From: Gordius sp. MW1
Taxonomy: Eukaryota > Nematomorpha > Gordioida > Gordea > Gordiidae
Length of the DNA stretch: 64,000 bases
Assembly: GCA_964036665.1 (NCBI GenBank)
Contig: OZ038526.1
Location: 26,722,001 to 26,786,000 of the forward strand
Direction of reading: 5' to 3'
In this document: in pieces, positions 3,908 through 64,000 of the stretch
How positions within the stretch are numbered: position 1 is the stretch's first letter
How the letters are laid out: each line of letters begins with the position of its first letter
Position numbers and translations under genes: made by a program
Notes under the pieces: generated by a model
The model's input: only the letters and a program-made list of their open reading frames with translations
Told to the model about the DNA's origin: nothing
Database searches by the model: none

Positions 3908-3949
3908 GACGATCGGCCCTTTCTTATCGTCCAGTAAGTCGGTTAGGGG

Positions 3950-5976: not shown

Positions 5977-6247
5977 AACTTTGTTGAATAGGAATTGGTT
6001 TATTTAAATGATATATGAACACGAATAATATAGAGATGATAAAAAATGGTTATTGGTGTGGTGATACACGCGAAAGAAGTAAAAATGATGATAATTGGTG
6101 AATTGACGAATTGGTGAATATTTGAATTGGTGAATATTGGCGAAGGAAGTAAGTAATGAAATTAACAGCTGGTTTAGCACCAGGAATATAGAAGTTACAT
6201 AATAAACGACGCGAATATCATATATATGAACGATGCAGCTCGCCACA
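5943..6247 (-). repeat. 5' LTR of the gypsy element
   Basis: 305 bp, pair of 1849-2153. Contains AATAAA in the transcribed strand (near 6002) and the gag ATG about 30 bp before its 3' edge. Flanked outside by ATAG. Confidence 0.85.
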
Positions 6248-40700: not shown

Positions 40701-43700
40701 CGTTTGCGTCAAAAAATTAGTTACGTATCAATGCCAAACAAAATATAATTTAATCTGGGCTTGGTCGTGTGAAATATTGAAACCCTTTACAGTATTCTCA
40801 CTTCATTATGCTGTTTACACCAGTAATAAATAAATAAAATATCAAAAAAGTATATACTTATCAATACAAACTAACAGTCAGAATGTGAACATTCATCTGT
40901 ATGCGTCAAAAGAATTATCAAAAAACAAGACATAATAATAGCAAAAAAACTGACGACTTATGAATTAATTAAATAAGTAACCTATTACTATATTAACCAG
41001 ACACTGGAATTATTCTTATTTAAAAGGAATTATAGGGAGGGAAAAATAGTTATAAATAATGTTAAAGCAATTATATATTTACTCATAATTGATGGAATGA
41101 TGTTCAAGATAATTAGATGATTGTACAACAAATAGATCAAAAGGCTCCAAAAGAGGGGAGCCTTCGTAGAAGGCTACTGAATGCCATGTTTTTTCATTTG
41201 GCTAAAAATAAATAAATTGACAATGTGTTAGATATTTACCTCCATCCAGTCAAATGGAGATTCTAGAGCTAATGAATCTAACAAACACTCATCCAACTCA
41301 GTGCAAGCTATAATTATATAAAAAAATATTTGGTAGATTGACTTTTAAGGTGCAAAATATAAGAGCTATAGAATGAAAATTAAATTAATTAGCGACGGAG
41401 CTGTAGACCTGCTGAAGAGAAGGTTGTTGTTGCTGTTAAAGTTGGGGTGAAACCAGAAGAGACAGGTGGAGTTGGACCTGATGGATAGGTTAATGCTGAA
41501 GTAGGACCTGATGGACCTGTTGCTGGTGTTGGACCAGATGGACCGGTTGATGCTGGAGTTGGACCTGATGGATAAGTAGATGCTGGTGTTGGACCTGATG
41601 GACCTGTTGATGCTGGGGTTGGACCAGATGGACCGGTTGATGCTGGAGTTGGACCTGATGGATAAGTAGATGCTCGTGTTGGACCTGATGGACCGGTTGA
41701 TGCTGGTGTTGGACCTGATGGACCGGTTGATGCTGGAGTTGGACCTGATGGACCAGTTGATGCTGGTGTTGGACCAGATGGACCGGTTGATGCTGGAGTT
41801 GGACCTGATGGATAAGTAGATGCTGGTGTTGGACCTGATGGGCCTGTTGATGCTGGTGTTGGACCTGATGGACCGGTTGATGCTGGTGTTGGACCTGATG
41901 GACCTGTTGATGCTGGTGTTGGACCTGATGGGCCTGTTGATGCTGGTGTTGGACCGGTTGATGCTGGTGTTGGACCTGATGGACCTGTTGATGCTGGAGT
42001 TGGACCTGATGGATAAGTAGATGCTGGTGTTGGACCTGATGGACCGGTTGATGCTGGTGTTGGACCTAATGGACCGGTTGATGCTGGAGTTGGACCTGAT
42101 GGACCAGTTGATGCTGGTGTTGGACCAGATGGACCGGTTGATGCTGGAGTTGGACCTGATGGATAAGTAGATGCTGTTGGACCTGATGGGCCTGTTGATG
42201 CTGATGTTGGACCTGATGGACCGGTTGATGCTGGTGTTGGACCTGATGGACCGGTTGATGCTGGTGTTGGACCTGATGGACCTGTTGATGCTGGTGTTGG
42301 ACCTGACGGACCGGTTGATGCCGGTGTTGGACCTGATGGACCGGTTGATGCTGGTGTTGGACCTGATGGACCGCTTGATGCTGGTGTTGGACCTGATGGG
42401 CCGGTTGATGCTGGTGTTGGAACTGATGGACCTGTTGACGATGGAGTTAGCCCTGGAGGACAAGTTGTTGTCGGAGTGGCTGATTGACCTGTAATGGACT
42501 GTGTAGTGTCAGTGGAAGGTACAGTTGGAGCTGATGGGCCGGTTGATGCTGGTGTTGGACCTGATGGACCGCTTGATGCTGGTGTTGGACCTGATGGGCC
42601 GGTTGATGCTGGTGTTGGACCTGATGGACCTGTTGACGATGGAGTTAGCCCTGGAGGACAAGTTGTTGTCGGAGTGGCTGATTGACCTGTACTGGACTGT
42701 GTAGTGTCAGTGGAAGGTACAGTTGGACCTGATGGGCCGGTTGATGCTGGTGTTGGACCTGACGGACCGGTTGATGCTGGTGTTGGACCTGATGGACCGG
42801 TTGATGCTGGTGTTTGACCTGACGGACCGGTTGATGCTGGTGTTGGACCAGATGGACCGGTTGATGCTGGAGTTGGACCTGATGGGCCTGTTGATGCTGG
42901 TGTTGGACCTGATGGACCGGTTGATGCTGGTGTTGGACCTGATGGACCTGTTGATGCTGGTGTTGGACCTGACGGACCGGTTGATGCTGGTGTTGGACCT
43001 GATGGACCGGTTGATGCTGGTGTTGGACCTGATGGACCTGTTGATGCTGGTGTTGGACCTGATGGGCCTGTTGATGCTGGTGTTGGACCTGATGGACCGG
43101 TTGATGCTGGTGTTGGACCTGATGGACCGGTTGATGCTGGTGTTGGACCTGATGGGCCTGTTGATGCTGATGTTGGACCTGATGGACCGGTTGATGCTGG
43201 TGTTGGACCTGATGGACCTGTTGATGCTGGTGTTGGACCTGATGGGCCTGTTGATGCTGGTGTTGGACCTGATGGACCGGTTGATGCTGGTGTTGGACCT
43301 GATGGACCGGTTGATGCTGGTGTTGAACCTGATGGACCGGTTGATGCTGGTGTTGAACCAGATGGACCGGTTGATGCTGGAGTTGGACCCGATGGATAAG
43401 TAGATGCTGGTGTTGGACCTGATGGGCCTGTTGATGCTGGTGTTGGACCTGATGGACCGGTTGATGCTGGTGTTGGACCTGATGGACCAGTTGATGCTGG
43501 TGTTGGACCTGATGGACCTGTTGACGATGGAGTTAGCCCTGGAGGACAAGTTGTTGTCGGAGTGGCTGATTGACCTGTACTGGACTGTGTAGTGTCAGTG
43601 GAAGGTACAGTTGGACCTGATGGGCCGGTTGATGCTGGTGTTGGACCTGACGGACCGGTTGATGCTGGTGTTGGACCTGATGGACCGGTTGATGCTGGTG

Positions 43701-46700
43701 TTGGACCTGATGGACCTGTTGATGCTGGGGTTGGACCAGATGGACCGGTTGATGCTGGAGTTGGACCTGATGGATAAGTAGATGCTGGTGTTGGACCTGA
43801 TGGACCGGTTGATGCTGGTGTTGGACCTGATGGACCGGTTGATGCTGGAGTTGGACCTGATGGACCTGTTGATGCTGGTGTTGGACCTGATGGGCCTGTT
43901 GATGCTGGTGTTGGACCTGATGGACCGGTTGATGCTGGTGTTGGACCTGATGGACCGGTTGATGCTGGTGTTGGACCTGATGGACCTGTTGATGCTGGTG
44001 TTGGACCTGACGGACCGGTTGATGCTGGTGTTGGACCTGATGGACCGGTTGATGCTGGTGTTGGACCGCTTGATGCTGGTGTTGGACCTGATGGGCCGGT
44101 TGATGCTGGTGTTGGACCTGATGGGCCGGTTGATGCTGGTGTTGGACCTGATGGACCTGTTGACGATGGAGTTAGCCCTGGAGGACAAGTTGTTGTCGGA
44201 GTGGCTGATTGACCTGTACTGGACTGTGTAGTGTCAGTGGAAGGTACAGTTGGACCTGATGGGCCGGTTGATGCTGGTGTTGGACCTGACGGACCGGTTG
44301 ATGCTGGTGTTGGACCTGATGGACCGGTTGATGCTGGTGTTGGACCTGATGGACCTGTTGATGCTGGGGTTGGACCAGATGGACCGGTTGATGCTGGAGT
44401 TGGACCTGATGGATAAGTAGATGCTGGTGTTGGACCTGATGGACCGGTTGATGCTGGTGTTGGACCTGATGGACCGGTTGATGCTGAAGTTGGACCTGAT
44501 GGACCTGTTGATGCTGGTGTTGGACCTGATGGGCCTGTTGATGCTGGTGTTGGACCTGATGGACCGGTTGATGCTGGTGTTGGACCTGATGGACCGGTTG
44601 ATGCTGGTGTTGGACCTGATGGACCTGTTGATGCTGGTGTTGGACCAGATGGACCGGTTGATGCTGGCGTTGGACCTGATGGATAAGTAGATGCTGGTGT
44701 TGGACCTGATGAGCCGGTTGATGCTGGAGTTGGACCTGATGGATAAGTAGATGCTGGTGTTGGACCTGATGGACCGGTTGATGCTGGTGTTGGACCTGAT
44801 GGACCGGTTGATGCTGGAGTTGGACCTGATGGACCTGTTGATGCTGGTGTTGGACCTGATGGGCCTGTTGATGCTGGTGTTGGACCTGATGGACCGGTTG
44901 ATGCTGGTGTTGGACCTGATGGGCCTGTTGATGCTGGTGTTGGACCTGATGGACCGGTTGATGCTGGTGTTGGACCTGATGGACCGGTTGATGCTGGTGT
45001 TGGACCTGATGGGCCTGTTGATGCTGATGTTGGACCTGATGGACCGGTTGATGCTGGTGTTGGACCTGATGGACCTGTTGATGCTGGTGTTGGACCTGAT
45101 GGGCCTGTTGATGCTGGTGTTGGACCTGATGGACCGGTTGATGCTGGTGTTGGACCTGATGGACCGGTTGATGCTGGTGTTGAACCTGATGGACCGGTTG
45201 ATGCTGGTGTTGAACCAGATGGACCGGTTGATGCTGGAGTTGGACCCGATGGATAAGTAGATGCTGGTGTTGGACCTGATGGGCCTGTTGATGCTGGTGT
45301 TGGACCTGATGGACCGGTTGATGCTGGTGTTGGACCTGATGGACCAGTTGATGCTGGTGTTGGACCTGATGGACCTGTTGACGATGGAGTTAGCCCTGGA
45401 GGACAAGTTGTTGTCGGAGTGGCTGATTGACCTGTACTGGACTGTGTAGTGTCAGTGGAAGGTACAGTTGGACCTGATGGGCCGGTTGATGCTGGTGTTG
45501 GACCTGACGGACCGGTTGATGCTGGTGTTGGACCTGATGGACCGGTTGATGCTGGTGTTGGACCTGATGGACCTGTTGATGCTGGGGTTGGACCAGATGG
45601 ACCGGTTGATGCTGGAGTTGGACCTGATGGATAAGTAGATGCTGGTGTTGGACCTGATGGACCGGTTGATGCTGGTGTTGGACCTGATGGACCGGTTGAT
45701 GCTGGAGTTGGACCTGATGGACCTGTTGATGCTGGTGTTGGACCTGATGGGCCTGTTGATGCTGGTGTTGGACCTGATGGACCGGTTGATGCTGGTGTTG
45801 GACCTGATGGACCGGTTGATGCTGGTGTTGGACCTGATGGACCTGTTGATGCTGGTGTTGGACCTGACGGACCGGTTGATGCTGGTGTTGGACCTGATGG
45901 ACCGGTTGATGCTGGTGTTGGACCTGATGGACCGCTTGATGCTGGTGTTGGACCTGATGGGCCGGTTGATGCTGGTGTTGGACCTGATGGACCTGTTGAC
46001 GATGGAGTTAGCCCTAGAGGACAAGTTGTTGTCGGAGTGGCTGATTGACCTGTACTGGACTGTGTAGTGTCAGTGGAAGGTACAGTTGGACCTGATGGGC
46101 CGGTTGATGCTGGTGTTGGACCTGACGGACCGGTTGATGCTGGTGTTGGACCTGATGGACCGGTTGATGCTGGTGTTGGACCTGTTGATGCTGGGGTTGG
46201 ACCAGATGGACCGGTTGATGCTGGAGTTGGACCTGATGGATAAGTAGATGCTGGTGTTGGACCTGATGGACCGGTTGATGCTGGTGTTGGACCTGATGGA
46301 CCGGTTGATGCTGGAGTTGGACCTGATGGACCGGTTGATGCTGGTGTTGGACCTGATGGGCCTGTTGATGCTGGTGTTGGACCTGATGGACCGGTTGATG
46401 CTGGTGTTGGACCTGATGGACCGGTTGATGCTGGTGTTGGACCTGATGGACCTGTTGATGCTGGTGTTGGACCAGATGGACCGGTTGATGCTGGCGTTGG
46501 ACCTGATGGACCGGTTGATGCTGGTGTTGGACCTGATGGACCTGTTGATGCTGGTGTTGGACCAGATGGACCGGTTGATGCTGGCGTTGGACCTGATGGA
46601 TAAGTAGATGCTGGTGTTGGACCTGATGAGCCGGTTGATGCTGGAGTTGGACCTGATGGATAAGTAGATGCTGGTGTTGGACCTGATGGACCGGTTGATG

Positions 46701-49700
46701 CTGGTGTTGGACCTGATGGACCGGTTGATGCTGGAGTTGGACCTGATGGACCTGTTGATGCTGGTGTTGGACCTGATGGGCCTGTTGATGCTGGTGTTGG
46801 ACCTGATGGACCGGTTGATGCTGGTGTTGGACCTGATGGGCCTGTTGATGCTGGTGTTGGACCTGATGGACCGGTTGATGCTGGTGTTGGACCTGATGGA
46901 CCGGTTGATGCTGGTGTTGGACCTGATGGGCCTGTTGATGCTGATGTTGGACCTGATGGACCGGTTGATGCTGGTGTTGGACCTGATGGACCTGTTGATG
47001 CTGGTGTTGGACCTGATGGGCCTGTTGATGCTGGTGTTGGACCTGATGGACCGGTTGATGCTGGTGTTGGACCTGATGGACCGGTTGATGCTGGTGTTGA
47101 ACCTGATGGACCGGTTGATGCTGGTGTTGAACCAGATGGACCGGTTGATGCTGGAGTTGGACCCGATGGATAAGTAGATGCTGGTGTTGGACCTGATGGG
47201 CCTGTTGATGCTGGTGTTGGACCTGATGGACCGGTTGATGCTGGTGTTGGACCTGATGGACCAGTTGATGCTGGTGTTGGACCTGATGGACCTGTTGACG
47301 ATGGAGTTAGCCCTGGAGGACAAGTTGTTGTCGGAGTGGCTGATTGACCTGTACTGGACTGTGTAGTGTCAGTGGAAGGTACAGTTGGACCTGATGGGCC
47401 GGTTGATGCTGGTGTTGGACCTGACGGACCGGTTGATGCTGGTGTTGGACCTGATGGACCGGTTGATGCTGGTGTTGGACCTGATGGACCTGTTGATGCT
47501 GGGGTTGGACCAGATGGACCGGTTGATGCTGGAGTTGGACCTGATGGATAAGTAGATGCTGGTGTTGGACCTGATGGACCGGTTGATGCTGGTGTTGGAC
47601 CTGATGGACCGGTTGATGCTGGAGTTGGACCTGATGGACCTGTTGATGCTGGTGTTGGACCTGATGGGCCTGTTGATGCTGGTGTTGGACCTGATGGACC
47701 GGTTGATGCTGGTGTTGGACCTGATGGACCGGTTGATGCTGGTGTTGGACCTGATGGACCTGTTGATGCTGGTGTTGGACCTGACGGACCGGTTGATGCT
47801 GGTGTTGGACCTGATGGACCGGTTGATGCTGGTGTTGGACCTGATGGACCGCTTGATGCTGGTGTTGGACCTGATGGGCCGGTTGATGCTGGTGTTGGAC
47901 CTGATGGACCTGTTGACGATGGAGTTAGCCCTGGAGGACAAGTTGTTGTCGGAGTGGCTGATTGACCTGTACTGGACTGTGTAGTGTCAGTGGAAGGTAC
48001 AGTTGGACCTGATGGGCCGGTTGATGCTGGTGTTGGACCTGACGGACCGGTTGATGCTGGTGTTGGACCTGATGGACCGGTTGATGCTGGTGTTGGACCT
48101 GATGGACCTGTTGATGCTGGGGTTGGACCAGATGGACCGGTTGATGCTGGAGTTGGACCTGATGGATAAGTAGATGCTGGTGTTGGACCTGATGGACCGG
48201 TTGATGCTGGTGTTGGACCTGATGGACCGGTTGATGCTGGAGTTGGACCTGATGGACCGGTTGATGCTGGTGTTGGACCTGATGGGCCTGTTGATGCTGG
48301 TGTTGGACCTGATGGACCGGTTGATGCTGGTGTTGGACCTGATGGACCGGTTGATGCTGGTGTTGGACCTGATGGACCTGTTGATGCTGGTGTTGGACCA
48401 GATGGACCGGTTGATGCTAGCGTTGGACCTGATGGATAAGTAGATGCTGGTGTTGGACCTGATGGGCCGGTTGATGCTGGAGTTGGACCTGATGGATAAG
48501 TAGATGCTGGTGTTGGACCTGATGGACCGGTTGATGCTGGTGTTGGACCTGATGGACCGGTTGATGCTGGAGTTGGACCTGATGGACCTGTTGATGCTGG
48601 TGTTGGACCTGATGGGCCTGTTGATGCTGGTGTTGGACCTGATGGACCGGTTGATGCTGGTGTTGGACCTGATGGGCCTGTTGATGCTGGTGTTGGACCT
48701 GATGGACCGGTTGATGCTGGTGTTGGACCTGATGGACCGGTTGATGCTGGTGTTGGACCTGATGGGCCTGTTGATGCTGATGTTGGACCTGATGGACCGG
48801 TTGATGCTGGTGTTGGACCTGATGGACCTGTTGATGCTGGTGTTGGACCTGATGGGCCTGTTGATGCTGGTGTTGGACCTGATGGACCGGTTGATGCTGG
48901 TGTTGGACCTGATGGACCGGTTGATGCTGGTGTTGAACCTGATGGACCGGTTGATGCTGGTGTTGAACCAGATGGACCGGTTGATGCTGGAGTTGGACCC
49001 GATGGATAAGTAGATGCTGGTGTTGGACCTGATGGGCCTGTTGATGCTGGTGTTGGACCTGATGGACCGGTTGATGCTGGTGTTGGACCTGATGGACCAG
49101 TTGATGCTGGTGTTGGACCTGATGGACCTGTTGACGATGGAGTTAGCCCTGGAGGACAAGTTGTTGTCGGAGTGGCTGATTGACCTGTACTGGACTGTGT
49201 AGTGTCAGTGGAAGGTACAGTTGGACCTGATGGGCCGGTTGATGCTGGTGTTGGACCTGACGGACCGGTTGATGCTGGTGTTGGACCTGATGGACCGGTT
49301 GATGCTGGTGTTGGACCTGATGGACCTGTTGATGCTGGGGTTGGACCAGATGGACCGGTTGATGCTGGAGTTGGACCTGATGGATAAGTAGATGCTGGTG
49401 TTGGACCTGATGGACCGGTTGATGCTGGTGTTGGACCTGATGGACCGGTTGATGCTGGAGTTGGACCTGATGGACCTGTTGATGCTGGTGTTGGACCTGA
49501 TGGGCCTGTTGATGCTGGTGTTGGACCTGATGGACCGGTTGATGCTGGTGTTGGACCTGATGGACCTGTTGATGCTGGTGTTGGACCAGATGGACCGGTT
49601 GATGCTGGAGTTGGACCTGATGGATAAGTAGATGCTGGTGTTGGACCTGATGGGCCGGTTGATGCTGGAGTTGGACCTGATGGATAAGTAGATGCTGGTG

Positions 49701-52700
49701 TTGGACCTGATGGACCGGTTGATGCTGGTGTTGGACCTGATGGACCGGTTGATGCTGGAGTTGGACCTGATGGACCTGTTGATGCTGGTGTTGGACCTGA
49801 TGGGCCTGTTGATGCTGGTGTTGGACCTGATGGACCGGTTGATGCTGGTGTTGGACCTGATGGGCCTGTTGATGCTGGTGTTGGACCTGATGGACCGGTT
49901 GATGCTGGTGTTGGACCTGATGGACCGGTTGATGCTGGTGTTGGACCTGATGGACCGCTTGATGCTGGTGTTGGACCTGATGGGCCGGTTGATGCTGGTG
50001 TTGGACCTGATGGACCTGTTGACGATGGAGTTAGCCCTGGAGGACAAGTTGTTGTCGGAGTGGCTGATTGACCTGTACTGGACTGTGTAGTGTCAGTGGA
50101 AGGTACAGTTGGACCTGATGGGCCGGTTGATGCTGGTGTTGGACCTGACGGACCGGTTGATGCTGGTGTTGGACCTGATGGACCGGTTGATGCTGGTGTA
50201 GGACCTGACGGACCGGTTGATGCTGGTGTTGGACCAGATGGACCGGTTGATGCTGGAGTTGGACCTGATGGATAAGTAGATGCTGGTGTTGGACCTGATG
50301 GCCCTGTTGATGCTGGTGTTGGACCTGATGGACCGGTTGATGCTGGTGTTGGACCTGATGGACCTGTTGATGCTGGTGTTGGACCTGACGGACCGGTTGA
50401 TGCTGGTGTTGGACCTGATGGACCGGTTGATGCTGGTGTTGGACCTGATGGACCTGTTGATGCTGGTGTTGGACCTGATGGGCCTGTTGATGCTGGTGTT
50501 GGACCAGATGGACCGGTTGATGCTGGTGTTGGACCTGATGGATAAGTAGATGCTGGTGTTGGACCTGACGGACTTGTTGATGCTGGTGTTGAACCTGATG
50601 GATAAGTAGATGCTGGTGTTGGACCTGATGGACCGGTTGATGCTGGTGTTGGACCTGATGGACCGGTTGATGCTGGTGTTGGACCTGATGGACCTGTTGA
50701 TGCTGGTGTTGGACCTGACGGACCGGTTGATGCTGGTGTTGGACCTGATGGACCGGTTGATGCTGGTGTTGGACCTGACGGACCGGTTGATGCTGGTGTT
50801 GGACCTGATGGACCTGTTGATGCTGGTGTTGGACCTGACGGACCGGTTGATGCTGGTGTTGGACCTGATGGACCGGTTGATGCTGGTGTTGGACCAGATG
50901 GACCGGTTGATGCTGGTGTTGGACCTGATGGATAAGTAGATGCTGGTGTTGGACCTGACGGACTTGTTGATGCTGGTGTTGAACCTGATGGATAAGTAGA
51001 TGCTGGTGTTGGATCTGATGGACCGGTTGATGCTGGTGTTGGACCTGATGGACCGGTTGATGCTGGTGTTGAACCTGATGGATAAGTAGATGCTGGTGTT
51101 GGACCTGATGGACCGGTTGATGCTGGTGTTGGACCTGATGGACCGGTTGATGCTGGTGTTGGACCTGATGGACCCGTTGATGCTGGTGTTGGACCTGACG
51201 GACCGGTTGATGCTGGTGTTGGACCTGATGGACCGGTTGATGCTGGTGTTGGACCTGATGGACCGGTTGATGCTGGTGTTGAACCAGATGGACCGGTTGA
51301 TGCTGGAGTTGGACCCGATGGATAAGTAGATGCTGGTGTTGGACCTGATGGGCCTGTTGATGCTGGTGTTGGACCTGATGGACCGGTTGATGCTGGTGTT
51401 GGACCTGATGGACCGGTTGATGCTGGAGTTGGACCTGATGGACCTGTTGATGCTGGTGTTGGACCTGATGGGCCTGTTGATGCTGGTGTTGGACCTGATG
51501 GACCGGTTGATGCTGGTGTTGGACCTGATGGGCCTGTTGATGCTGGTGTTGGACCTGATGGACCGGTTGATGCTGGTGTTGGACCTGATGGACCGGTTGA
51601 TGCTGGTGTTGGACCTGATGGGCCTGTTGATGCTGATGTTGGACCTGATGGACCGGTTGATGCTGGTGTTGGACCTGATGGACCTGTTGATGCTGGTGTT
51701 GGACCTGATGGGCCTGTTGATGCCGGTGTTGGACCTGATGGACCGGTTGATGCTGGTGTTGGACCTGATGGACCGGTTGATGCTGGTGTTGAACCTGATG
51801 GACCGGTTGATGCTGGTGTTGAACCAGATGGACCGGTTGATGCTGGAGTTGGACCCGATGGATAAGTAGATGCTGGTGTTGGACCTGATGGGCCTGTTGA
51901 TGCTGGTGTTGGACCTGATGGACCGGTTGATGCTGGTGTTGGACCTGATGGACCAGTTGATGCTGGTGTTGGACCTGATGGACCTGTTGACGATGGAGTT
52001 AGCCCTGGAGGACAAGTTGTTGTCGGAGTGGCTGATTGACCTGTACCGGACTGTGTAGTGTCAGTGGAAGGTACAGTTGGACCTGATGGGCCGGTTGATG
52101 CTGGTGTTGGACCTGACGGACCGGTTGATGCTGGTGTTGGACCTGATGGACCGGTTGATGCTGGTGTTGGACCTGATGGACCTGTTGATGCTGGGGTTGG
52201 ACCAGATGGACCGGTTGATGCTGGAGTTGGACCTGATGGATAAGTAGATGCTGGTGTTGGACCTGATGGACCGGTTGATGCTGGTGTTGGACCTGATGGA
52301 CCGGTTGATGCTGGAGTTGGACCTGATGGACCTGTTGATGCTGGTGTTGGACCTGATGGGCCTGTTGATGCTGGTGTTGGACCTGATGGACCGGTTGATG
52401 CTGGGGTTGGACCTGATGGACCGGTTGATGCTGGTGTTGGACCTGATGGACCTGTTGATGCTGGTGTTGGACCAGATGGACCGGTTGATGCTGGAGTTGG
52501 ACCTGATGGATAAGTAGATGCTGGTGTTGGACCTGATGGGCCGGTTGATGCTGGAGTTGGACCTGATGGATAAGTAGATGCTGGTGTTGGACCTGATGGA
52601 CCGGTTGATGCTGGTGTTGGACCTGATGGACCGGTTGATGCTGGAGTTGGACCTGATGGACCTGTTGATGCTGGTGTTGGACCTGATGGGCCTGTTGATG

Positions 52701-55700
52701 CTGGTGTTGGACCTGATGGACCGGTTGATGCTGGTGTTGGACCTGATGGGCCTGTTGATGCTGGTGTTGGACCTGATGGACCGGTTGATGCTGGTGTTGG
52801 ACCTGATGGACCGGTTGATGCTGGTGTTGGACCTGATGGACCGCTTGATGCTGGTGTTGGACCTGATGGGCCGGTTGATGCTGGTGTTGGACCTGATGGA
52901 CCTGTTGACGATGGAGTTAGCCCTGGAGGACAAGTTGTTGTCGGAGTGGCTGATTGACCTGTAATGGACTGTGTAGTGTCAGTGGAAGGTACAGTTGGAC
53001 CTGATGGGCCAGTTGATGCTGGTGTTGGACCTGATGGACCGCTTGATGCTGGTGTTGGACCTGATGGGCCGGTTGATGCTGGTGTTGGACCTGATGGACC
53101 TGTTGACGATGGAGTTAGCCCTGGAGGACAAGTTGTTGTCGGAGTGGCTGATTGACCTGTACTGGACTGTGTAGTGTCAGTGGAAGGTACAGTTGGACCT
53201 GATGGGCCGGTTGATGCTGGTGTTGGACCTGATGGACCTGTTGACGATGGAGTTAGCCCTGGAGGACAAGTTGTTGTCGGAGTGGCTGATTGACCTGTAC
53301 TGGACTGTGTAGTGTCAGTGGAAGGTACAGTTGGACCTGATGGGCCGGTTGATGCTGGTGTTGGACCTGACGGACCGGTTGATGCTGGTGTTGGACCTGA
53401 TGGACCGGTTGATGCTGGTGTAGGACCTGACGGACCGGTTGATGCTGGTGTTGGACCAGATGGACCGGTTGATGCTGGAGTTGGACCTGATGGATAAGTA
53501 GATGCTGGTGTTGGACCTGATGGCCCTGTTGATGCTGGTGTTGGACCTGATGGACCGGTTGATGCTGGTGTTGGACCTGATGGACCTGTTGATGCTGGTG
53601 TTGGACCTGACGGACCGGTTGATGCTGGTGTTGGACCTGATGGACCGGTTGATGCTGGTGTTGGACCTGATGGACCTGTTGATGCTGGTGTTGGACCTGA
53701 TGGGCCTGTTGATGCTGGTGTTGGACCAGATGGACCGGTTGATGCTGGTGTTGGACCTGATGGATAAGTAGATGCTGGTGTTGGACCTGACGGACTTGTT
53801 GATGCTGGTGTTGAACCTGATGGATAAGTAGATGCTGGTGTTGGACCTGATGGACCGGTTGATGCTGGTGTTGGACCTGATGGACCGGTTGATGCTGGTG
53901 TTGGACCTGATGGACCTGTTGATGCTGGTGTTGGACCTGACGGACCGGTTGATGCTGGTGTTGGACCTGATGGACCGGTTGATGCTGGTGTTGGACCTGA
54001 CGGACCGGTTGATGCTGGTGTTGGACCTGATGGACCTGTTGATGCTGGTGTTGGACCTGACGGACCGGTTGATGCTGGTGTTGGACCTGATGGACCGGTT
54101 GATGCTGGTGTTGGACCTGATGGACCTGTTGATGCTGGTGTTGGACCTGATGGGCCTGTTGATGCTGGTGTTGGACCTGATGGACCGGTTGATGCTGGTG
54201 TTGGACCAGATGGACCGGTTGATGCTGGTGTTGGACCTGATGGATAAGTAGATGCTGGTGTTGGACCTGACGGACTTGTTGATGCTGGTGTTGAACCTGA
54301 TGGATAAGTAGATGCTGGTGTTGGACCTGATGGACCGGTTGATGCTGGTGTTGGACCTGATGGACCGGTTGATGCTGGTGTTGAACCTGATGGATAAGTA
54401 GATGCTGGTGTTGGACCTGATGGACCGGTTGATGCTGGTGTTGGACCTGATGGACCGGTTGATGCTGGTGTTGGACCTGATGGACCCGTTGATGCTGGTG
54501 TTGGACCTGACGGACCGGTTGATGCTGGTGTTGGACCTGATGGACCGGTTGATGCTGGTGTTGGACCTGATGGACCGGTTGATGCTGGTGTTGAACCAGA
54601 TGGACCGGTTGATGCTGGAGTTGGACCCGATGGATAAGTAGATGCTGGTGTTGGACCTGATGGGCCTGTTGATGCTGGTGTTGGACCTGATGGACCGGTT
54701 GATGCTGGTGTTGGACCTGATGGACCGGTTGATGCTGGAGTTGGACCTGATGGACCTGTTGATGCTGGTGTTGGACCTGATGGGCCTGTTGATGCTGGTG
54801 TTGGACCTGATGGACCGGTTGATGCTGGTGTTGGACCTGATGGGCCTGTTGATGCTGGTGTTGGACCTGATGGACCGGTTGATGCTGGTGTTGGACCTGA
54901 TGGACCGGTTGATGCTGGTGTTGGACCTGATGGGCCTGTTGATGCTGATGTTGGACCTGATGGACCGGTTGATGCTGGTGTTGGACCTGATGGACCTGTT
55001 GATGCTGGTGTTGGACCTGATGGGCCTGTTGATGCTGGTGTTGGACCTGATGGACCGGTTGATGCTGGTGTTGGACCTGATGGACCGGTTGATGCTGGTG
55101 TTGAACCTGATGGACCGGTTGATGCTGGTGTTGAACCAGATGGACCGGTTGATGCTGGAGTTGGACCCGATGGATAAGTAGATGCTGGTGTTGGACCTGA
55201 TGGGCCTGTTGATGCTGGTGTTGGACCTGATGGACCGGTTGATGCTGGTGTTGGACCTGATGGACCAGTTGATGCTGGTGTTGGACCTGATGGACCTGTT
55301 GACGATGGAGTTAGCCCTGGAGGACAAGTTGTTGTCGGAGTGGCTGATTGACCTGTACTGGACTGTGTAGTGTCAGTGGAAGGTACAGTTGGACCTGATG
55401 GGCCGGTTGATGCTGGTGTTGGACCTGACGGACCGGTTGATGCTGGTGTTGGACCTGATGGACCGGTTGATGCTGGTGTTGGACCTGATGGACCTGTTGA
55501 TGCTGGGGTTGGACCAGATGGACCGGTTGATGCTGGAGTTGGACCTGATGGATAAGTAGATGCTGGTGTTGGACCTGATGGACCGGTTGATGCTGGTGTT
55601 GGACCTGATGGACCGGTTGATGCTGGAGTTGGACCTGATGGACCTGTTGATGCTGGTGTTGGACCTGATGGGCCTGTTGATGCTGGTGTTGGACCTGATG

Positions 55701-58700
55701 GACCGGTTGATGCTGGTGTTGGACCTGATGGACCGGTTGATGCTGGTGTTGGACCTGATGGACCTGTTGATGCTGGTGTTGGACCAGATGGACCGGTTGA
55801 TGCTGGAGTTGGACCTGATGGATAAGTAGATGCTGGTGTTGGACCTGATGGGCCGGTTGATGCTGGAGTTGGACCTGATGGATAAGTAGATGCTGGTGTT
55901 GGACCTGATGGACCGGTTGATGCTGGTGTTGGACCTGATGGACCGGTTGATGCTGGAGTTGGACCTGATGGACCTGTTGATGCTGGTGTTGGACCTGATG
56001 GGCCTGTTGATGCTGGTGTTGGACCTGATGGACCGGTTGATGCTGGTGTTGGACCTGATGGGCCTGTTGATGCTGGTGTTGGACCTGATGGACCGGTTGA
56101 TGCTGGTGTTGGACCTGATGGACCGGTTGATGCTGGTGTTGGACCTGATGGACCGCTTGATGCTGGTGTTGGACCTGATGGGCCGGTTGATGCTGGTGTT
56201 GGACCTGATGGACCTGTTGACGATGGAGTTAGCCCTGGAGGACAAGTTGTTGTCGGAGTGGCTGATTGACCTGTAATGGACTGTGTAGTGTCAGTGGAAG
56301 GTACAGTTGGACCTGATGGGCCAGTTGATGCTGGTGTTGGACCTGATGGACCGCTTGATGCTGGTGTTGGACCTGATGGGCCGGTTGATGCTGGTGTTGG
56401 ACCTGATGGACCTGTTGACGATGGAGTTAGCCCTGGAGGACAAGTTGTTGTCGGAGTGGCTGATTGACCTGTACTGGACTGTGTAGTGTCAGTGGAAGGT
56501 ACAGTTGGACCTGATGGGCCGGTTGATGCTGGTGTTGGACCTGATGGACCTGTTGACGATGGAGTTAGCCCTGGAGGACAAGTTGTTGTCGGAGTGGCTG
56601 ATTGACCTGTACTGGACTGTGTAGTGTCAGTGGAAGGTACAGTTGGACCTGATGGGCCGGTTGATGCTGGTGTTGGACCTGACGGACCGGTTGATGCTGG
56701 TGTTGCACCTGATGGACCGGTTGATGCTGGTGTAGGACCTGACGGACCGGTTGATGCTGGTGTTGGACCAGATGGACCGGTTGATGCTGGAGTTGGACCT
56801 GATGGATAAGTAGATGCTGGTGTTGGACCTGATGGCCCTGTTGATGCTGGTGTTGGACCTGATGGACCGGTTGATGCTGGTGTTGGACCTGATGGACCTG
56901 TTGATGCTGGTGTTGGACCTGACGGACCGGTTGATGCTGGTGTTGGACCTGATGGACCGGTTGATGCTGGTGTTGGACCTGATGGACCTGTTGATGCTGG
57001 TGTTGGACCTGATGGGCCTGTTGATGCTGGTGTTGGACCAGATGGACCGGTTGATGCTGGTGTTGGACCTGATGGATAAGTAGATGCTGGTGTTGGACCT
57101 GACGGACTTGTTGATGCTGGTGTTGAACCTGATGGATAAGTAGATGCTGGTGTTGGACCTGATGGACCGGTTGATGCTGGTGTTGGACCTGATGGACCGG
57201 TTGATGCTGGTGTTGGACCTGATGGACCTGTTGATGCTGGTGTTGGACCTGACGGACCGGTTGATGCTGGTGTTGGACCTGATGGACCGGTTGATGCTGG
57301 TGTTGGACCTGACGGACCGGTTGATGCTGGTGTTGGACCTGATGGACCTGTTGATGCTGGTGTTGGACCTGACGGACCGGTTGATGCTGGTGTTGGACCT
57401 GATGGACCGGTTGATGCTGGTGTTGGACCTGATGGACCTGTTGATGCTGGTGTTGGACCTGATGGGCCTGTTGATGCTGGTGTTGGACCTGATGGACCGG
57501 TTGATGCTGGTGTTGGACCAGATGGACCGGTTGATGCTGGTGTTGGACCTGATGGATAAGTAGATGCTGGTGTTGGACCTGACGGACTTGTTGATGCTGG
57601 TGTTGAACCTGATGGATAAGTAGATGCTGGTGTTGGACCTGATGGACCGGTTGATGCTGGTGTTGGACCTGATGGACCGGTTGATGCTGGTGTTGAACCT
57701 GATGGATAAGTAGATGCTGGTGTTGGACCTGATGGACCGGTTGATGCTGGAGTTGGACCTGATGGACCGGTTGATGCTGGTGTTGGACCTGATGGACCCG
57801 TTGATGCTGGTGTTGGACCTGACGGACCGGTTGATGCTGGTGTTGGACCTGATGGACCGGTTGATGCTGGTGTTGGACCTGATGGACCGGTTGATGCTGG
57901 TGTTGAACCAGATGGACCGGTTGATGCTGGAGTTGGACCCGATGGATAAGTAGATGCTGGTGTTGGACCTGATGGGCCTGTTGATGCTGGTGTTGGACCT
58001 GATGGACCGGTTGATGCTGGTGTTGGACCTGATGGACCGGTTGATGCTGGAGTTGGACCTGATGGACCTGTTGATGCTGGTGTTGGACCTGATGGGCCTG
58101 TTGATGCTGGTGTTGGACCTGATGGACCGGTTGATGCTGGTGTTGGACCTGATGGGCCTGTTGATGCTGGTGTTGGACCTGATGGACCGGTTGATGCTGG
58201 TGTTGGACCTGATGGACCGGTTGATGCTGGTGTTGGACCTGATGGGCCTGTTGATGCTGATGTTGGACCTGATGGACCGGTTGATGCTGGTGTTGGACCT
58301 GATGGACCTGTTGATGCTGGTGTTGGACCTGATGGGCCGGTTGATGCTGGTGTTGGACCTGATGGACCGGTTGATGCTGGTGTTGAACCAGATGGACCGG
58401 TTGATGCTGGAGTTGGACCCGATGGATAAGTAGATGCTGGTGTTGGACCTGATGGGCCTGTTGATGCTGGTGTTGGACCTGATGGACCGGTTGATGCTGG
58501 TGTTGGACCTGATGGACCGGTTGATGCTGGAGTTGGACCTGATGGACCTGTTGATGCTGGTGTTGGACCTGATGGGCCTGTTGATGCTGGTGTTGGACCT
58601 GATGGACCGGTTGATGCTGGTGTTGGACCTGATGGGCCTGTTGATGCTGGTGTTGGACCTGATGGACCGGTTGATGCTGGTGTTGGACCTGATGGACCGG

Positions 58701-61700
58701 TTGATGCTGGTGTTGGACCTGATGGGCCTGTTGATGCTGATGTTGGACCTGATGGACCGGTTGATGCTGGTGTTGGACCTGATGGACCTGTTGATGCTGG
58801 TGTTGGACCTGATGGGCCTGTTGATGCTGGTGTTGGACCTGATGGACCGGTTGATGCTGGTGTTGGACCTGATGGACCGGTTGATGCTGGTGTTGAACCT
58901 GATGGACCGGTTGATGCTGGTGTTGAACCAGATGGACCGGTTGATGCTGGAGTTGGACCCGATGGATAAGTAGATGCTGGTGTTGGACCTGATGGGCCTG
59001 TTGATGCTGGTGTTGGACCTGATGGACCGGTTGATGCTGGTGTTGGACCTGATGGACCAGTTGATGCTGGTGTTGGACCTGATGGACCTGTTGACGATGG
59101 AGTTAGCCCTGGAGGACAAGTTGTTGTCGGAGTGGCTGATTGACCTGTACTGGACTGTGTAGTGTCAGTGGAAGGTACAGTTGGACCTGATGGGCCGGTT
59201 GATGCTGGTGTTGGACCTGACGGACCGGTTGATGCTGGTGTTGGACCTGATGGACCGGTTGATGCTGGTGTTGGACCTGATGGACCTGTTGATGCTGGGG
59301 TTGGACCAGATGGACCGGTTGATGCTGGAGTTGGACCTGATGGATAAGTAGATGCTGGTGTTGGACCTGATGGACCGGTTGATGCTGGTGTTGGACCTGA
59401 TGGACCGGTTGATGCTGGAGTTGGACCTGATGGACCTGTTGATGCTGGTGTTGGACCTGATGGGCCTGTTGATGCTGGTGTTGGACCTGATGGACCGGTT
59501 GATGCTGGTGTTGGACCTGATGGACCGGTTGATGCTGGTGTTGGACCTGATGGACCTGTTGATGCTGGTGTTGGACCAGATGGACCGGTTGATGCTGGAG
59601 TTGGACCTGATGGATAAGTAGATGCTGGTGTTGGACCTGATGGGCCGGTTGATGCTGGAGTTGGACCTGGAGGATAAGTAGATGCTGGTGTTGGACCTGA
59701 TGGACCGGTTGATGCTGGTGTTGGACCTGATGGACCGGTTGATGCTGGAGTTGGACCTGATGGACCTGTTGATGCTGGTGTTGGACCTGATGGGCCTGTT
59801 GATGCTGGTGTTGGACCTGATGGACCGGTTGATGCTGGTGTTGGACCTGATGGGCCTGTTGATGCTGGTGTTGGACCTGATGGACCGGTTGATGCTGGTG
59901 TTGGACCTGATGGACCGGTTGATGCTGGTGTTGGACCTGATGGACCGCTTGATGCTGGTGTTGGACCTGATGGGCCGGTTGATGCTGGTGTTGGACCTGA
60001 TGGACCTGTTGACGATGGAGTTAGCCCTGGAGGACAAGTTGTTGTCGGAGTGGCTGATTGACCTGTAATGGACTGTGTAGTGTCAGTGGAAGGTACAGTT
60101 GGACCTGATGGGCCAGTTGATGCTGGTGTTGGACCTGATGGACCGCTTGATGCTGGTGTTGGACCTGATGGGCCGGTTGATGCTGGTGTTGGACCTGATG
60201 GACCTGTTGACGATGGAGTTAGCCCTGGAGGACAAGTTGTTGTCGGAGTGGCTGATTGACCTGTACTGGACTGTGTAGTGTCAGTGGAAGGTACAGTTGG
60301 ACCTGATGGGCCGGTTGATGCTGGTGTTGGACCTGATGGACCTGTTGACGATGGAGTTAGCCCTGGAGGACAAGTTGTTGTCGGAGTGGCTGATTGACCT
60401 GTACTGGACTGTGTAGTGTCAGTGGAAGGTACAGTTGGACCTGATGGGCCGGTTGATGCTGGTGTTGGACCTGACGGACCGGTTGATGCTGGTGTTGGAC
60501 CTGATGGACCGGTTGATGCTGGTGTAGGACCTGACGGACCGGTTGATGCTGGTGTTGGACCAGATGGACCGGTTGATGCTGGAGTTGGACCTGATGGATA
60601 AGTAGATGCTGGTGTTGGACCTGATGGCCCTGTTGATGCTGGTGTTGGACCTGATGGACCGGTTGATGCTGGTGTTGGACCTGATGGACCTGTTGATGCT
60701 GGTGTTGGACCTGACGGACCGGTTGATGCTGGTGTTGGACCTGATGGACCGGTTGATGCTGGTGTTGGACCTGATGGACCTGTTGATGCTGGTGTTGGAC
60801 CTGATGGGCCTGTTGATGCTGGTGTTGGACCAGATGGACCGGTTGATGCTGGTGTTGGACCTGATGGATAAGTAGATGCTGGTGTTGGACCTGACGGACT
60901 TGTTGATGCTGGTGTTGAACCTGATGGATAAGTAGATGCTGGTGTTGGACCTGATGGACCGGTTGATGCTGGTGTTGGACCGGTTGATGCTGGTGTTGGA
61001 CCTGATGGACCTGTTGATGCTGGTGTTGGACCTGACGGACCGGTTGATGCTGGTGTTGGACCTGATGGACCGGTTGATGCTGGTGTTGGACCTGACGGAC
61101 CGGTTGATGCTGGTGTTGGACCTGATGGACCTGTTGATGCTGGTGTTGGACCTGACGGACCGGTTGATGCTGGTGTTGGACCTGATGGACCGGTTGATGC
61201 TGGTGTTGGACCTGATGGACCTGTTGATGCTGGTGTTGGACCTGATGGGCCTGTTGATGCTGGTGTTAGACCTGATGGACCGGTTGATGCTGGTGTTGGA
61301 CCAGATGGACCGGTTGATGCTGGTGTTGGACCTGATGGATAAGTAGATGCTGGTGTTGGACCTGACGGACTTGTTGATGCTGGTGTTGAACCTGATGGAT
61401 AAGTAGATGCTGGTGTTGGACCTGATGGACCGGTTGATGCTGGTGTTGGACCTGATGGACCGGTTGATGCTGGTGTTGAACCTGATGGATAAGTAGATGC
61501 TGGTGTTGGACCTGATGGACCGGTTGATGCTGGTGTTGGACCTGATGGACCGGTTGATGCTGGTGTTGGACCTGATGGACCCGTTGATGCTGGTGTTGGA
61601 CCTGACGGACCGGTTGATGCTGGTGTTGGACCTGATGAACCGGTTGATGCTGGTGTTGGACCTGATGGACCGGTTGATGCTGGTGTTGAACCAGATGGAC

Positions 61701-64000
61701 CGGTTGATGCTGGAGTTGGACCCGATGGATAAGTAGATGCTGGTGTTGGACCTGATGGGCCTGTTGATGCTGGTGTTGGACCTGATGGACCGGTTGATGC
61801 TGGTGTTGGACCTGATGGACCGGTTGATGCTGGAGTTGGACCTGATGGACCTGTTGATGCTGGTGTTGGACCTGATGGGCCTGTTGATGCTGGTGTTGGA
61901 CCTGATGGACCGGTTGATGCTGGTGTTGGACCTGATGGGCCTGTTGATGCTGGTGTTGGACCTGATGGACCGGTTGATGCTGGTGTTGGACCTGATGGAC
62001 CGGTTGATGCTGGTGTTGAACCTGATGGACCGGTTGATGCTGGTGTTGAACCAGATGGACCGGTTGATGCTGGAGTTGGACCCGATGGATAAGTAGATGC
62101 TGGTGTTGGACCTGATGGGCCTGTTGATGCTGGTGTTGGACCTGATGGACCGGTTGATGCTGGTGTTGGACCTGATGGACCAGTTGATGCTGGTGTTGGA
62201 CCTGATGGACCTGTTGACGATGGAGTTAGCCCTGGAGGACAAGTTGTTGTCGGAGTGGCTGATTGACCTGTACTGGACTGTGTAGTGTCAGTGGAAGGTA
62301 CAGTTGGACCTGATGGGCCGGTTGATGCTGGTGTTGGACCTGACGGACCGGTTGATGCTGGTGTTGGACCTGATGGACCGGTTGATGCTGGTGTTGGACC
62401 TGATGGACCTGTTGATGCTGGGGTTGGACCAGATGGACCGGTTGATGCTGGAGTTGGACCTGATGGATAAGTAGATGCTGGTGTTGGACCTGATGGACCG
62501 GTTGATGCTGGTGTTGGACCTGATGGACCGGTTGATGCTGGAGTTGGACCTGATGGACCTGTTGATGCTGGTGTTGGACCTGATGGGCCTGTTGATGCTG
62601 GTGTTGGACCTGATGGACCGGTTGATGCTGGTGTTGGACCTGATGGACCGGTTGATGCTGGTGTTGGACCTGATGGACCTGTTGATGCTGGTGTTGGACC
62701 AGATGGACCGGTTGATGCTGGAGTTGGACCTGATGGATAAGTAGATGCTGGTGTTGGACCTGATGGGCCGGTTGATGCTGGAGTTGGACCTGATGGATAA
62801 GTAGATGCTGGTGTTGGACCTGATGGACCGGTTGATGCTGGTGTTGGACCTGATGGACCGGTTGATGCTGGAGTTGGACCTGATGGACCTGTTGATGCTG
62901 GTGTTGGACCTGATGGGCCTGTTGATGCTGGTGTTGGACCTGATGGACCGGTTGATGCTGGTGTTGGACCTGATGGGCCTGTTGATGCTGGTGTTGGACC
63001 TGATGGACCGGTTGATGCTGGTGTTGGACCTGATGGACCGGTTGATGCTGGTGTTGGACCTGATGGACCGCTTGATGCTGGTGTTGGACCTGATGGGCCG
63101 GTTGATGCTGGTGTTGGACCTGTTGACGATGGAGTTAGCCCTGGAGGACAAGTTGTTGTCGGAGTGGCTGATTGACCTGTAATGGACTGTGTAGTGTCAG
63201 TGGAAGGTACAGTTGGACCTGATGGGCCAGTTGATGCTGGTGTTGGACCTGATGGACCGCTTGATGCTGGTGTTGGACCTGATGGGCCGGTTGATGCTGG
63301 TGTTGGACCTGATGGACCTGTTGACGATGGAGTTAGCCCTGGAGGACAAGTTGTTGTCGGAGTGGCTGATTGACCTGTACTGGACTGTGTAGTGTCAGTG
63401 GAAGGTACAGTTGGACCTGATGGGCCGGTTGATGCTGGTGTTGGACCTGATGGACCTGTTGACGATGGAGTTAGCCCTGGAGGACAAGTTGTTGTCGGAG
63501 TGGCTGATTGACCTGTACTGGACTGTGTAGTGTCAGTGGAAGGTACAGTTGGACCTGATGGGCCGGTTGATGCTGGTGTTGGACCTGACGGACCGGTTGA
63601 TGCTGGTGTTGGACCTGATGGACCGGTTGATGCTGGTGTAGGACCTGACGGACCGGTTGATGCTGGTGTTGGACCAGATGGACCGGTTGATGCTGGAGTT
63701 GGACCTGATGGATAAGTAGATGCTGGTGTTGGACCTGATGGCCCTGTTGATGCTGGTGTTGGACCTGATGGACCGGTTGATGCTGGTGTTGGACCTGATG
63801 GACCTGTTGATGCTGGTGTTGGACCTGACGGACCGGTTGATGCTGGTGTTGGACCTGATGGACCGGTTGATGCTGGTGTTGGACCTGATGGACCTGTTGA
63901 TGCTGGTGTTGGACCTGATGGGCCTGTTGATGCTGGTGTTGGACCAGATGGACCGGTTGATGCTGGTGTTGGACCTGATGGATAAGTAGATGCTGGTGTT
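30927..64000 (-). CDS. Giant mucin-like secreted protein gene, 3' part; 5' end beyond the window
   Basis: From 5' to 3' on the minus strand: a Pro/Thr/Ser/Gly repeat exon (64000 and beyond to 41409); module 1 exons 41307-41240, 41201-41083, 38187-38087, 38012-37782; exons 37617-37573 and 37402-37346; about 14 micro-exons (36425-33120); module 2 exons 33053-32995, 32843-32716, 32436-32336, 32064-31834; VWC exons 31738-31700, 31591-31504, 31023-30927 with TGA stop. Every join I propose keeps phase and uses AG/GT. Visible product is about 8,000 residues. I infer a heavily O-glycosylated extracellular or surface mucin. The weakest link is between 37346 and 36425, where another exon could exist. 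It is possible but less likely that the repeat exon and the 3' exons belong to separate genes; the first downstream donor and acceptor are phase-compatible. Confidence 0.75.
31834..33053 (-). CDS. Module 2: duplicated 173-codon domain of unknown family, four exons
   Basis: Exons A2 33053-32995 (59 nt), B2 32843-32716 (128), C2 32436-32336 (101), D2 32064-31834 (231). Reading: DLKWLDVDHIVPLVNFDIEI; then LLEIVIHTVGGSCPEMFKYN and RWIEFLKFTKEPSGV; then DDNVTTTTDSWSDIKD and NYLYGPQASQCKNTCRLG; then KTIILDILIEVDVIVYMITY, RCNKFIPGTDTCDPNELEFL and so on to SWDFN. B2 ends GA/GTAATA, so unspliced reading shows a false stop. Phases are 1-0, 0-2, 2-1, 1-1, as in module 1. Strand patterns such as VIVYMITYRC then LEFLIYSSECDVP recall ApoD-type lipocalins (VYSC, then WILARxPxLP), and a mucin WxxW-type fold is another option. 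I do not assign a family. Confidence 0.65.
33120..36425 (-). CDS. Run of about 14 symmetric micro-exons encoding a Thr-rich stalk
   Basis: All enter and leave in phase 1. Positions (minus) and joined residues: 36425-36405 STAQTT; 36355-36335 IITTEA; 36239-36219 ITTTNA; 36084-36064 MTTTET; 35934-35914 ITTTKA; 35782-35762 ITTTEA; 35488-35468 PATSVP; 34712-34689 STSTKAP; 34559-34548 ATA (12 nt, least sure); 33781-33758 TTITQAP; 33580-33557 PTTTKIT; 33340-33323 TTTTK; 33248-33231 PTNPT; 33149-33120 ISIPKFTKP. Each has an AG before and GTA or GTAA after. Lengths are 12, 18, 21, 24 or 30 nt, all multiples of three, so any can be skipped without frame loss. Composition (Thr/Ser/Pro/Ala) suits an O-glycosylated stalk. 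Individual calls on such short exons are uncertain; the shared phase, composition and order make the set credible. The architecture recalls schistosome micro-exon genes. Confidence 0.6.
35762..36360 (-). repeat. Tandem duplication of a micro-exon plus its intron, period about 115-155 bp
   Basis: Five units, each with CCATNACTACAACNNANGCTG bracketed by AAAAAG and GTANTATTGATT, followed by similar AT-rich intron sequence (TTATATAATTTT, ACTTATTAAAATT). The 21-nt exon is better kept than the intron around it. This appears to be how the micro-exon series grew. Confidence 0.75.
37346..37617 (-). CDS. Two linker exons after module 1
   Basis: 37617-37573 (45 nt; pyrimidine tract then TTTTTTGCAG acceptor; donor AG/GTTTAC) encodes EPLKIIVKIEPEPT. 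37402-37346 (57 nt; donor AG/GTAAGA) encodes ITVLCYKYPRNCVSVKPS with two Cys. Both are phase 1-1 and join D1 (ends NEWNK plus G) without changing frame. By position they correspond to the first VWC exons behind module 2 but show no clear similarity. A further open stretch at 37239-37040 (minus), with NVFRVCYGACIITQN, may be another exon, but no phase-correct acceptor was found. Confidence 0.55.
37782..41307 (-). CDS. Module 1: duplicated 173-codon domain of unknown family, four exons
   Basis: Exons A1 41307-41240 (68 nt), B1 41201-41083 (119), C1 38187-38087 (101), D1 38012-37782 (231). Reading: CTELDECLLDSLALESPFDW; PNEKTWHSVAFYEGSPLLEP and FDLFVVQSSNYLEHHSINY; SGEFDDYNVEKLLVEEGGIV and LSPENLYGSNERLG; KYLVLYRKTYNDKVAYIFLY, KCNTLLPSGICHPWGVK, IIILSVYPRICPDILKYIRH and so on to EWNK. 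It matches module 2 in total length (519 nt), in C and D exon lengths exactly, in A+B total (187 nt), in phases, and at DDxNV, LYG and RLG-K. B1 ends GA/GTAAAT (false stop if unspliced). The C1 acceptor is a tandem TAGTAG. The 2.9-kb B1-C1 intron contains the 38664-40290 transposon. Family not identified. Confidence 0.65.
38350..38660. repeat. G/C-homopolymer-rich low-complexity DNA
   Basis: A C run at 38443-38454 and GGGAGGGGGAGGGGAG-type purine blocks at 38581-38628 precede the inverted-repeat element. CTCGGGCCTTCGGCCCTCG forms a small hairpin. It sits in a mucin-gene intron. Confidence 0.6.
38664..40290. mobile_element. Nonautonomous DNA transposon with 20-bp perfect terminal inverted repeats
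   Basis: 38664-38683 is the exact reverse complement of 40271-40290 (GCCCATAAATTGCATAGCAA). Another copy of the ATTGCATAGCAATT core lies at about 39979-39993, and a GCAATTTATGGGCTC relic occurs at 16350-16366. The interior has no transposase, and the minisatellite at 38990-39950 fills most of it. No clear target duplication is seen. Confidence 0.75.
38990..39955. repeat. Minisatellite, about eight units of 127-131 bp
   Basis: Units begin TTTTGGCCAATGGTCATTTT and continue CATTGGTCAGCAGCCAGCGG, ACGGCCAAAAAGTCATAATA, GCAATGGTAGTAACAGGAAC. Starts are near 39000, 39100, 39203, 39333, 39461, 39590, 39717 and 39848. The first two are shorter and diverged. Open frames across it are by-products of the repeat. 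Confidence 0.93.
40291..41078. other. Intron sequence of the mucin-like gene, nothing further recognised
   Basis: Between the transposon and exon B1. CAGGGGCGAAGATCCCGGCG at 40598-40617 may be another MITE end. The plus-strand open stretch 40642-40833 has no motif and is antisense to the gene. Confidence 0.45.
41409..64000 (-). CDS. Giant Pro/Thr/Ser/Gly mucin-repeat exon, open to the window edge
   Basis: Read on the minus strand with codon 5' ends at coordinates divisible by three, the whole stretch from 63999 to 41410 (7,530 codons) appears free of stops. The 30-bp unit encodes GPSGPTPAST; variants give TYPS (from the GGATAAGTAGATGC form), TSSGP, or S for P. Every 6-90 units comes a 38-residue spacer including VPSTDTTQSSTGQSATP and TTTCPPGLTPSSTG. 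About 40% Ser/Thr and 30% Pro is a classical mucin PTS composition for dense O-glycosylation. All indels I checked are multiples of three (3, 9, 30). The 3' end leaves the repeat as FTPTLTATTTFSSA and is spliced at 41409 (GCAG/GTCTAC, phase 1); unspliced it would end LQLRR-stop at 41389. No ATG was noticed in this frame, so the start lies beyond the window. Confidence 0.85.
41440..64000. repeat. 30-bp tandem repeat array with 26 spacer insertions and higher-order structure
   Basis: The unit is TGGTGTTGGACCTGATGGAC plus CGGTTGATGC. A spacer with GGAGTTAGCCCTGGAGGACA occurs 26 times (first near 42450, last near 63470). From 43595 to 49205 spacers alternate between short and long gaps, with a higher-order period of 1.84-1.92 kb. 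From 52061 onward the period is 3.1-3.8 kb (52061, 55373, 59165, 62288), each ending in a cluster of three or four closely spaced spacers. Higher-order copies are almost identical, indicating recent amplification. The array continues past 64000. Confidence 0.95.

Follow-up and report, generated by a model that had tools for sequence, protein, structure and literature searches.

The segment 41409-64000 of the window (the whole 64,000-nucleotide stretch of horsehair worm DNA analysed here) is very probably the 3′ part of an internal coding exon of 40,260 nt, read from the minus strand, in a gene whose giant mucin-like product is predicted to be secreted. Coordinates above 64000 carry the window numbering along the same contig, on which window position 1 is contig C8:26722001. 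Tandem Repeats Finder reports the segment as a single 30-bp array running from 41467 to the window end, with 762 copies. The preliminary description had proposed that this apparent satellite is one uninterrupted exon encoding a Pro/Thr/Ser (PTS) mucin domain, with every other frame broken by stops, and direct counting agrees: the PTS frame contains 0 stops in 7,530 codons, the two other minus-strand frames contain 26 and 32, and the three plus-strand frames contain 109, 1,331, and 99. Followed along the extended contig, the PTS frame stays open between 81672 and 41392, a run of 13,427 codons with 0 stops. P, S, and T together account for 69.9% of its 13,427 residues (P 28.1, T 21.1, S 20.7, G 17.6, and A 9.2%). 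ATG, GTG, TTG, and CTG codons are all absent. Thus, as had been argued from the lack of Met, the frame is invisible to start-codon ORF callers; its absence from the default ORF list follows also from the frame leaving the window edge, which would be sufficient alone. It had further been suggested that a signal peptide and start lie past 64000, and extension indeed reveals a signal-like predicted start at 85156, ~3.5 kb upstream of the PTS exon. That the array is a single uninterrupted coding exon remains the best reading, given the in-phase 25-exon chain and the sister locus described below. The proposed length of 22.6 kb is superseded: the exon measures 40.3 kb and is internal.

The PTS exon spans 81668-41409 in phase 1-1. 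Its borders read CAG/GTTCC at 81668 and CAGCAG/GTCTAC at 41409, giving AG and GT, respectively. An exon that stops at its own TAA (41391-41389, after GLQLRR) was considered and dropped; we prefer the donor at 41408 because what follows it is an in-phase exon with homology to M1a, in the upstream module. When the genome was searched with the PTS frame, a length of 13,427 codons was returned for all matches listed (206 matches; 150 of 764 candidates scored). The features in the window that belong to the gene model are as follows.

41409..64000, minus strand: PTS (mucin) exon, in-window part; open frame that continues to extended position 81668
41240..41307, minus strand: module 2 exon a (CTELDECLLDSLALESPFDWME), homologous to the upstream exon 83624-83554
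41083..41201, minus strand: module 2 exon b (PNEKTWHSVAFYEG...), homologous to 83249-83125
38087..38187, minus strand: module 2 exon c (SGEFDDYNVEKLLVEEGGIVLSP...), homologous to 83034-82931
37782..38012, minus strand: module 2 exon d (KYLVLYRKTYNDKVAYIFLYKC...NEWNK), homologous to 82840-82610, to contig C8 28.67-28.80 Mb, and to contig C3
37573..37617, minus strand: candidate linker exon L3 (VEPLKIIVKIEPEPT), from splice borders and phase only
37346..37402, minus strand: candidate exon L4 (VITVLCYKYPRNCVSVKPS), from borders and phase; similar stretches occur in loci L016 and L017
37000..37029, minus strand: candidate exon C1 (DINMAQSFLA), from splice borders and phase only
36396..36425, minus strand: candidate exon C2 (KSTAQTTSNN), from splice borders and phase only
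36335..36361, minus strand: candidate Thr-rich mini-exon C3 (KKAIITTEA in the chain), from borders and phase

In total, 25 predicted exons with AG/GT borders, read from 85156 to 36335 on the minus strand, join into 14,002 residues with 0 stops. The predicted order is a signal-like start, an antistasin domain, short linkers, module copy 1, the PTS region, module copy 2, and a tail. The start exon at 85156 is in frame and, judged by eye, signal-like (MTGPFNLLKSHPILLVCISVSFLSFAMAQ); the box TATAAAAG is present at 85386, 230 bases 5′ of the ATG at 85156. The antistasin exon (contig C8:26806617-26806691) matches Pfam PF02822 with 31.9 bits against a cut-off of 21.2 (34.2 for the domain alone), which places one member of this family near the N-terminus. 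Antistasin-domain matches number at least 77 genome-wide and are clustered, for example at contig C5:4.18-4.19 Mb and contig C3:9.20-9.24 Mb. A sub-cut-off match of the N-terminus to PqqD (E 0.0012) was taken as chance.

The small linker exons are candidates, identified by borders and phase. The 3′ end of the gene was looked for beyond exon C3 and was not found. A 152-bp tandem repeat occupies 35680-36253 (~3.8 copies), and in some copies a mini-exon of the EKAITTTEA type retains intact splice borders. Specifically, two further Thr-rich mini-exons lie within it, at 36245-36219 and 35940-35914; the remaining copies have no AG border. A second tandem repeat, of 128 bp, lies at 39160-39949, inside the predicted intron that separates exons b and c of module 2. 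It may be dispersed, as similar translated stretches are seen by eye in locus L027.

The PTS exon is bracketed by two copies of one module. Module 1 (exons M1a-d, 177 residues) lies upstream, and module 2 (exons M2a-d, 173 residues) lies downstream. The copies align over 177 positions at 30% identity (E 4e-24), and their border phases are the same throughout: 0 after exon a, 2 after b, 1 after c, and 1 after d. Neither module matches a Pfam family at cut-off, and neither has a convincing sequence match in the PDB. A lipocalin fold, to which the module bears a loose likeness, found no support in sequence searches, which gave neither a Pfam match above cut-off nor a PDB sequence match, and was set aside. 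Likewise, sub-cut-off matches of module 1 to NOMO_3rd (E 0.035), Anemone_cytotox (E 0.08), and FTP (E 0.15) were taken as chance.

A sister locus exists on the same contig, 1.9 Mb from the window gene. Searches with the two module exons d return six and seven places, the queries themselves included: contig C8 at 26.76 and 26.80 Mb (the window gene) and at 28.67-28.80 Mb, and one place on contig C3. Within contig C8:28799401-28809000, counterparts of the antistasin exon, the linker N6, M1a, M1b, M1c, and M1d follow one another in the order of the window gene. The antistasin exon is 61.5% identical (E 2e-12), N6 46% (E 0.019), M1a 53% (E 6e-5), M1b 44% (E 1e-10), M1c 56%, and M1d 55%. Splice phases equal those of the window gene wherever they were read. 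For the start exon, N1-N5, L1, and L2, no convincing counterpart appears in this interval, and the start exon may fall outside it; N1-N5, L1, and L2 are therefore placed by borders and phase. Sister module 2 follows ~79 kb further on and is 38% identical to window module 2.

The layout of the window gene predicted a PTS array directly upstream of sister module 2, and one was then found there. In the 5 kb beside sister module 2 that were read directly (locus L028), repeats of the APTGPSLPSGPSV type lie on the same strand, and GC content is 53-55% in 8 of 10 500-base bins. The remainder of the array is known from a repeat search, whose matches cover 28723666-28797672 (~74 kb), between the two sister modules. 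The sister repeat differs from that of the window gene in sequence and shares its place, strand, and composition class. Open frames in the sister array range from 194 to 1,354 codons among the matches listed (150 of 576 candidates scored). The PTS region there thus appears to be split into many exons. APTGPSL-type PTS repeats occur at a third place, contig C8 28.09 Mb, which accounts for 5 of the matches listed (open frames of 94-196 codons; 1 of the 5 on the plus strand). In addition, a weak Ig-like stretch lies 3′ of sister module 2 (loci L016 and L027; contig C8 28719.6-28720.2 kb; Ig_3 E 0.028, below cut-off). The 123 kb read here showed no counterpart of it close to the window gene.

The array itself consists of 1,212 ten-residue units that comprise 83 distinct 30-mers, a long P/T/S-rich tandem repeat domain of the sort that characterizes mucins. 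Ser and Thr provide 5,612 possible O-glycosylation sites in 13,427 residues (41.8%), and the backbone mass of the PTS region is ~1.2 MDa. Cysteine is concentrated in a spacer around TTTCPPGLTPSST, seen 42 times, that holds 42 of the 43 Cys of the frame, with one Cys per 46 to 1,021 residues. Deviations from the consensus favor third codon positions, with 44/40/132 at positions 1/2/3 among the distinct 30-mers (p 8e-17, a value to be read with the caution that shared variants are not independent) and 340/228/1,403 across all 1,212 units. When distinct column-by-base events are counted, the distribution is 15/16/22 of 53 (p 0.24), and enrichment of synonymous over nonsynonymous events gives p 0.11. 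Of four possible stop changes, none is seen in the 1,212 units (p 0.026). In long-range self-comparison, each of the 30 strongest lags is divisible by three, and the strongest lag that is not divisible reaches only 28%. Taken by itself, the repeat favors coding, short of proof.

Could the array instead be a non-coding 30-bp satellite whose period happens to be a multiple of three and which stays open through homogenization? A homogenized 30-bp repeat keeps its register unaided and readily remains open, so the absence of stops is weak evidence by itself. Moreover, blocks of the array have been duplicated recently (for example, 100% identity over 1,500 bases at lag 10,218), and consequently few independent mutations test the PTS frame; the event-level codon tests are correspondingly weak. 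Against a satellite stand the stops that close all five other frames, the phase-matched homologous module exons that flank the array on both sides, and the sister locus, where a PTS repeat of unrelated sequence but the same composition class occupies the equivalent position on the same strand. An in-phase exon chain that runs through the array, together with such a sister locus, is not what a non-coding satellite presents, and we consider that reading highly improbable. We regard as decisive the evidence that lies outside the repeat, namely, the predicted phase-matched flanking exons and the sister locus of the same layout. Slightly less probable still is that the locus is a decaying former mucin gene and the long exon its relic. 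Some 152-bp copies near the 3′ end lack an AG border, as decay would have it; the 14,002 stop-free residues and the lack of stop changes among the array units argue for an intact gene.

A somewhat better contender, unlikely nonetheless, is that the antistasin-module gene ends earlier and that a second gene, encoding the mucin, begins at 82207 or 82204 with the peptide MMVQLFFLYITVFTCDIRGDRVHC. By eye, MMVQLFFLYITVFTCDIRGDRVHC could pass for a signal peptide, and it is in frame with the PTS exon; TATAAAAG begins at 82219. This box lies just 12 bases 5′ of the ATG, which is near for a TATA box; a TATA box normally sits further than that from the ATG. The phase-1 donor of the last module 1 exon suits the PTS exon, the sister counterpart has the same donor, and modules 1 and 2 form a matched pair around the PTS exon. 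These features point to a single gene in which the PTS exon is internal.

How does the predicted protein relate to known ones? Gel-forming mucins of the MUC2 and MUC5AC type have a long PTS region between Cys-bearing folded ends, with Cys sites within the PTS region. The window gene likewise has a long PTS region between Cys-bearing ends and Cys sites inside it. It differs in that Pfam scans of its N-terminus and modules, a scope that excludes the tail past exon C3, return no von Willebrand D, C8, TIL, or cystine-knot domain. With the antistasin family (PF02822), the gene shares its single domain above cut-off near the N-terminus, which here differs in heading a giant PTS protein. We know of no architecture in which an antistasin domain is combined with a PTS region flanked on both sides by one orphan module. 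A literature search on mucin in hairworms, made with general terms rather than with the window's repeat or module, returned no mention among the matches listed.

Regarding size, the PTS exon belongs to the top class and is not a clear record, because human MUC12 proteins are reported to reach 23,080 residues (PMC13345508) and the spider aggregate spidroin AgSp1 has a reported coding sequence of 42,270 bp (PMC6553539). Thus, the preliminary description's "among the largest known coding exons" is a reasonable statement, and a claim to the outright largest may fail. In some individuals, the central exon of the tethered mucin MUC12 is described as larger than any other human coding exon, and MUC12 and other mucin VNTR exons share with the window gene a huge Ser/Thr/Pro-rich tandem-repeat coding exon set among small exons and length changes by whole codons (PMC13345508). 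In contrast to MUC12, the repeat of the window gene is flanked by an antistasin domain and a duplicated orphan module, and the exons read contain no transmembrane or SEA part. AgSp1, compared here by layout and size alone, is likewise a giant repetitive protein, in its case a secreted glue, and it differs in having two exons of similar size and spidroin ends (PMC6553539).

The wider genome supplies context. Contig C12 (loci L030 and L031) is the mitochondrial genome, 14,798 bp in length. It contains 26 inverted pairs of at least 25 nt, many within protein genes, with arms of up to 108 nt at 100% identity; specifically, arms of 108 nt lie in nad1 and of 95 nt in atp6 (genes named by eye and position). 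Gene nad1 is opposite in strand to cox1; annelid mtDNA has a single coding strand. Long perfect inverted repeats inside mitochondrial protein genes are a feature of Nematomorpha: palindromes of this kind, in mtDNAs of ~15 kb, are reported for four nematomorphs, on a scale described as exceptional and not entirely unique (PMC6649704). On this ground the genome is assigned, with fair confidence, to a horsehair worm. Rfam microRNA-family matches on the mtDNA were rejected as hairpins below gathering score. A leech source, which the many antistasin matches had suggested, was dropped in view of the nad1 strand and the nematomorph-type palindromes. The hirudin family and the annelid erythrocruorin linker each have 0 matches in the genome, and the control genomes likewise have 0 for both, so these zeros carry little weight. 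Two open frames near the gene resemble parts of mobile elements. On the minus strand, 2354-4021 is a long open frame that by eye resembles the polymerase/integrase part of a Ty3/gypsy retroelement, bracketed by identical short tandem repeats at 1999-2044 and 6093-6138, 4,094 bases apart. On the plus strand of the extended contig, 110025-111860 is a 612-codon open frame, by eye similar to a hAT-type transposase with a BED finger.

The product of the gene is most likely a secreted, hydrated polymer, perhaps cross-linked. The notion is that, following splicing of the predicted exons, the PTS domain (~13,420 residues in ten-residue units) would be exported and densely O-glycosylated, and thereby stiff and hydrated. 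The spaced Cys could cross-link PTS chains, the folded end modules could anchor or assemble the polymer, and the antistasin domain may protect it from proteases. The result would be a gel or coat, such as egg-string jelly, epidermal mucus, or a surface coat inside the arthropod host; we do not rank these roles. The array itself may have expanded by exchange of whole-codon blocks.

Coding sequence of such size is readily masked as satellite and dropped from annotation, and the PTS exon offers no start codon to rescue it. The two sister genes provide a natural test of how a coding repeat can be replaced while frame, phases, and flanking domains hold. If real, the gene would represent a new mucin architecture, with a module outside Pfam, in a phylum poor in protein data. 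We tentatively speculate, as a possibility that we do not yet consider probable, that horsehair worms possess their own class of giant mucins. In this class, an antistasin head and a duplicated orphan Cys-bearing module bracketing a PTS region of at least ten thousand residues would form a fixed framework, the repeat would be replaced wholesale between sister genes, and the egg strings, or a protective coat in the arthropod host, would be built from the resulting polymer. If real, the gene would also point to a specific protein that may make up a parasitic worm's gelatinous or protective secretions.
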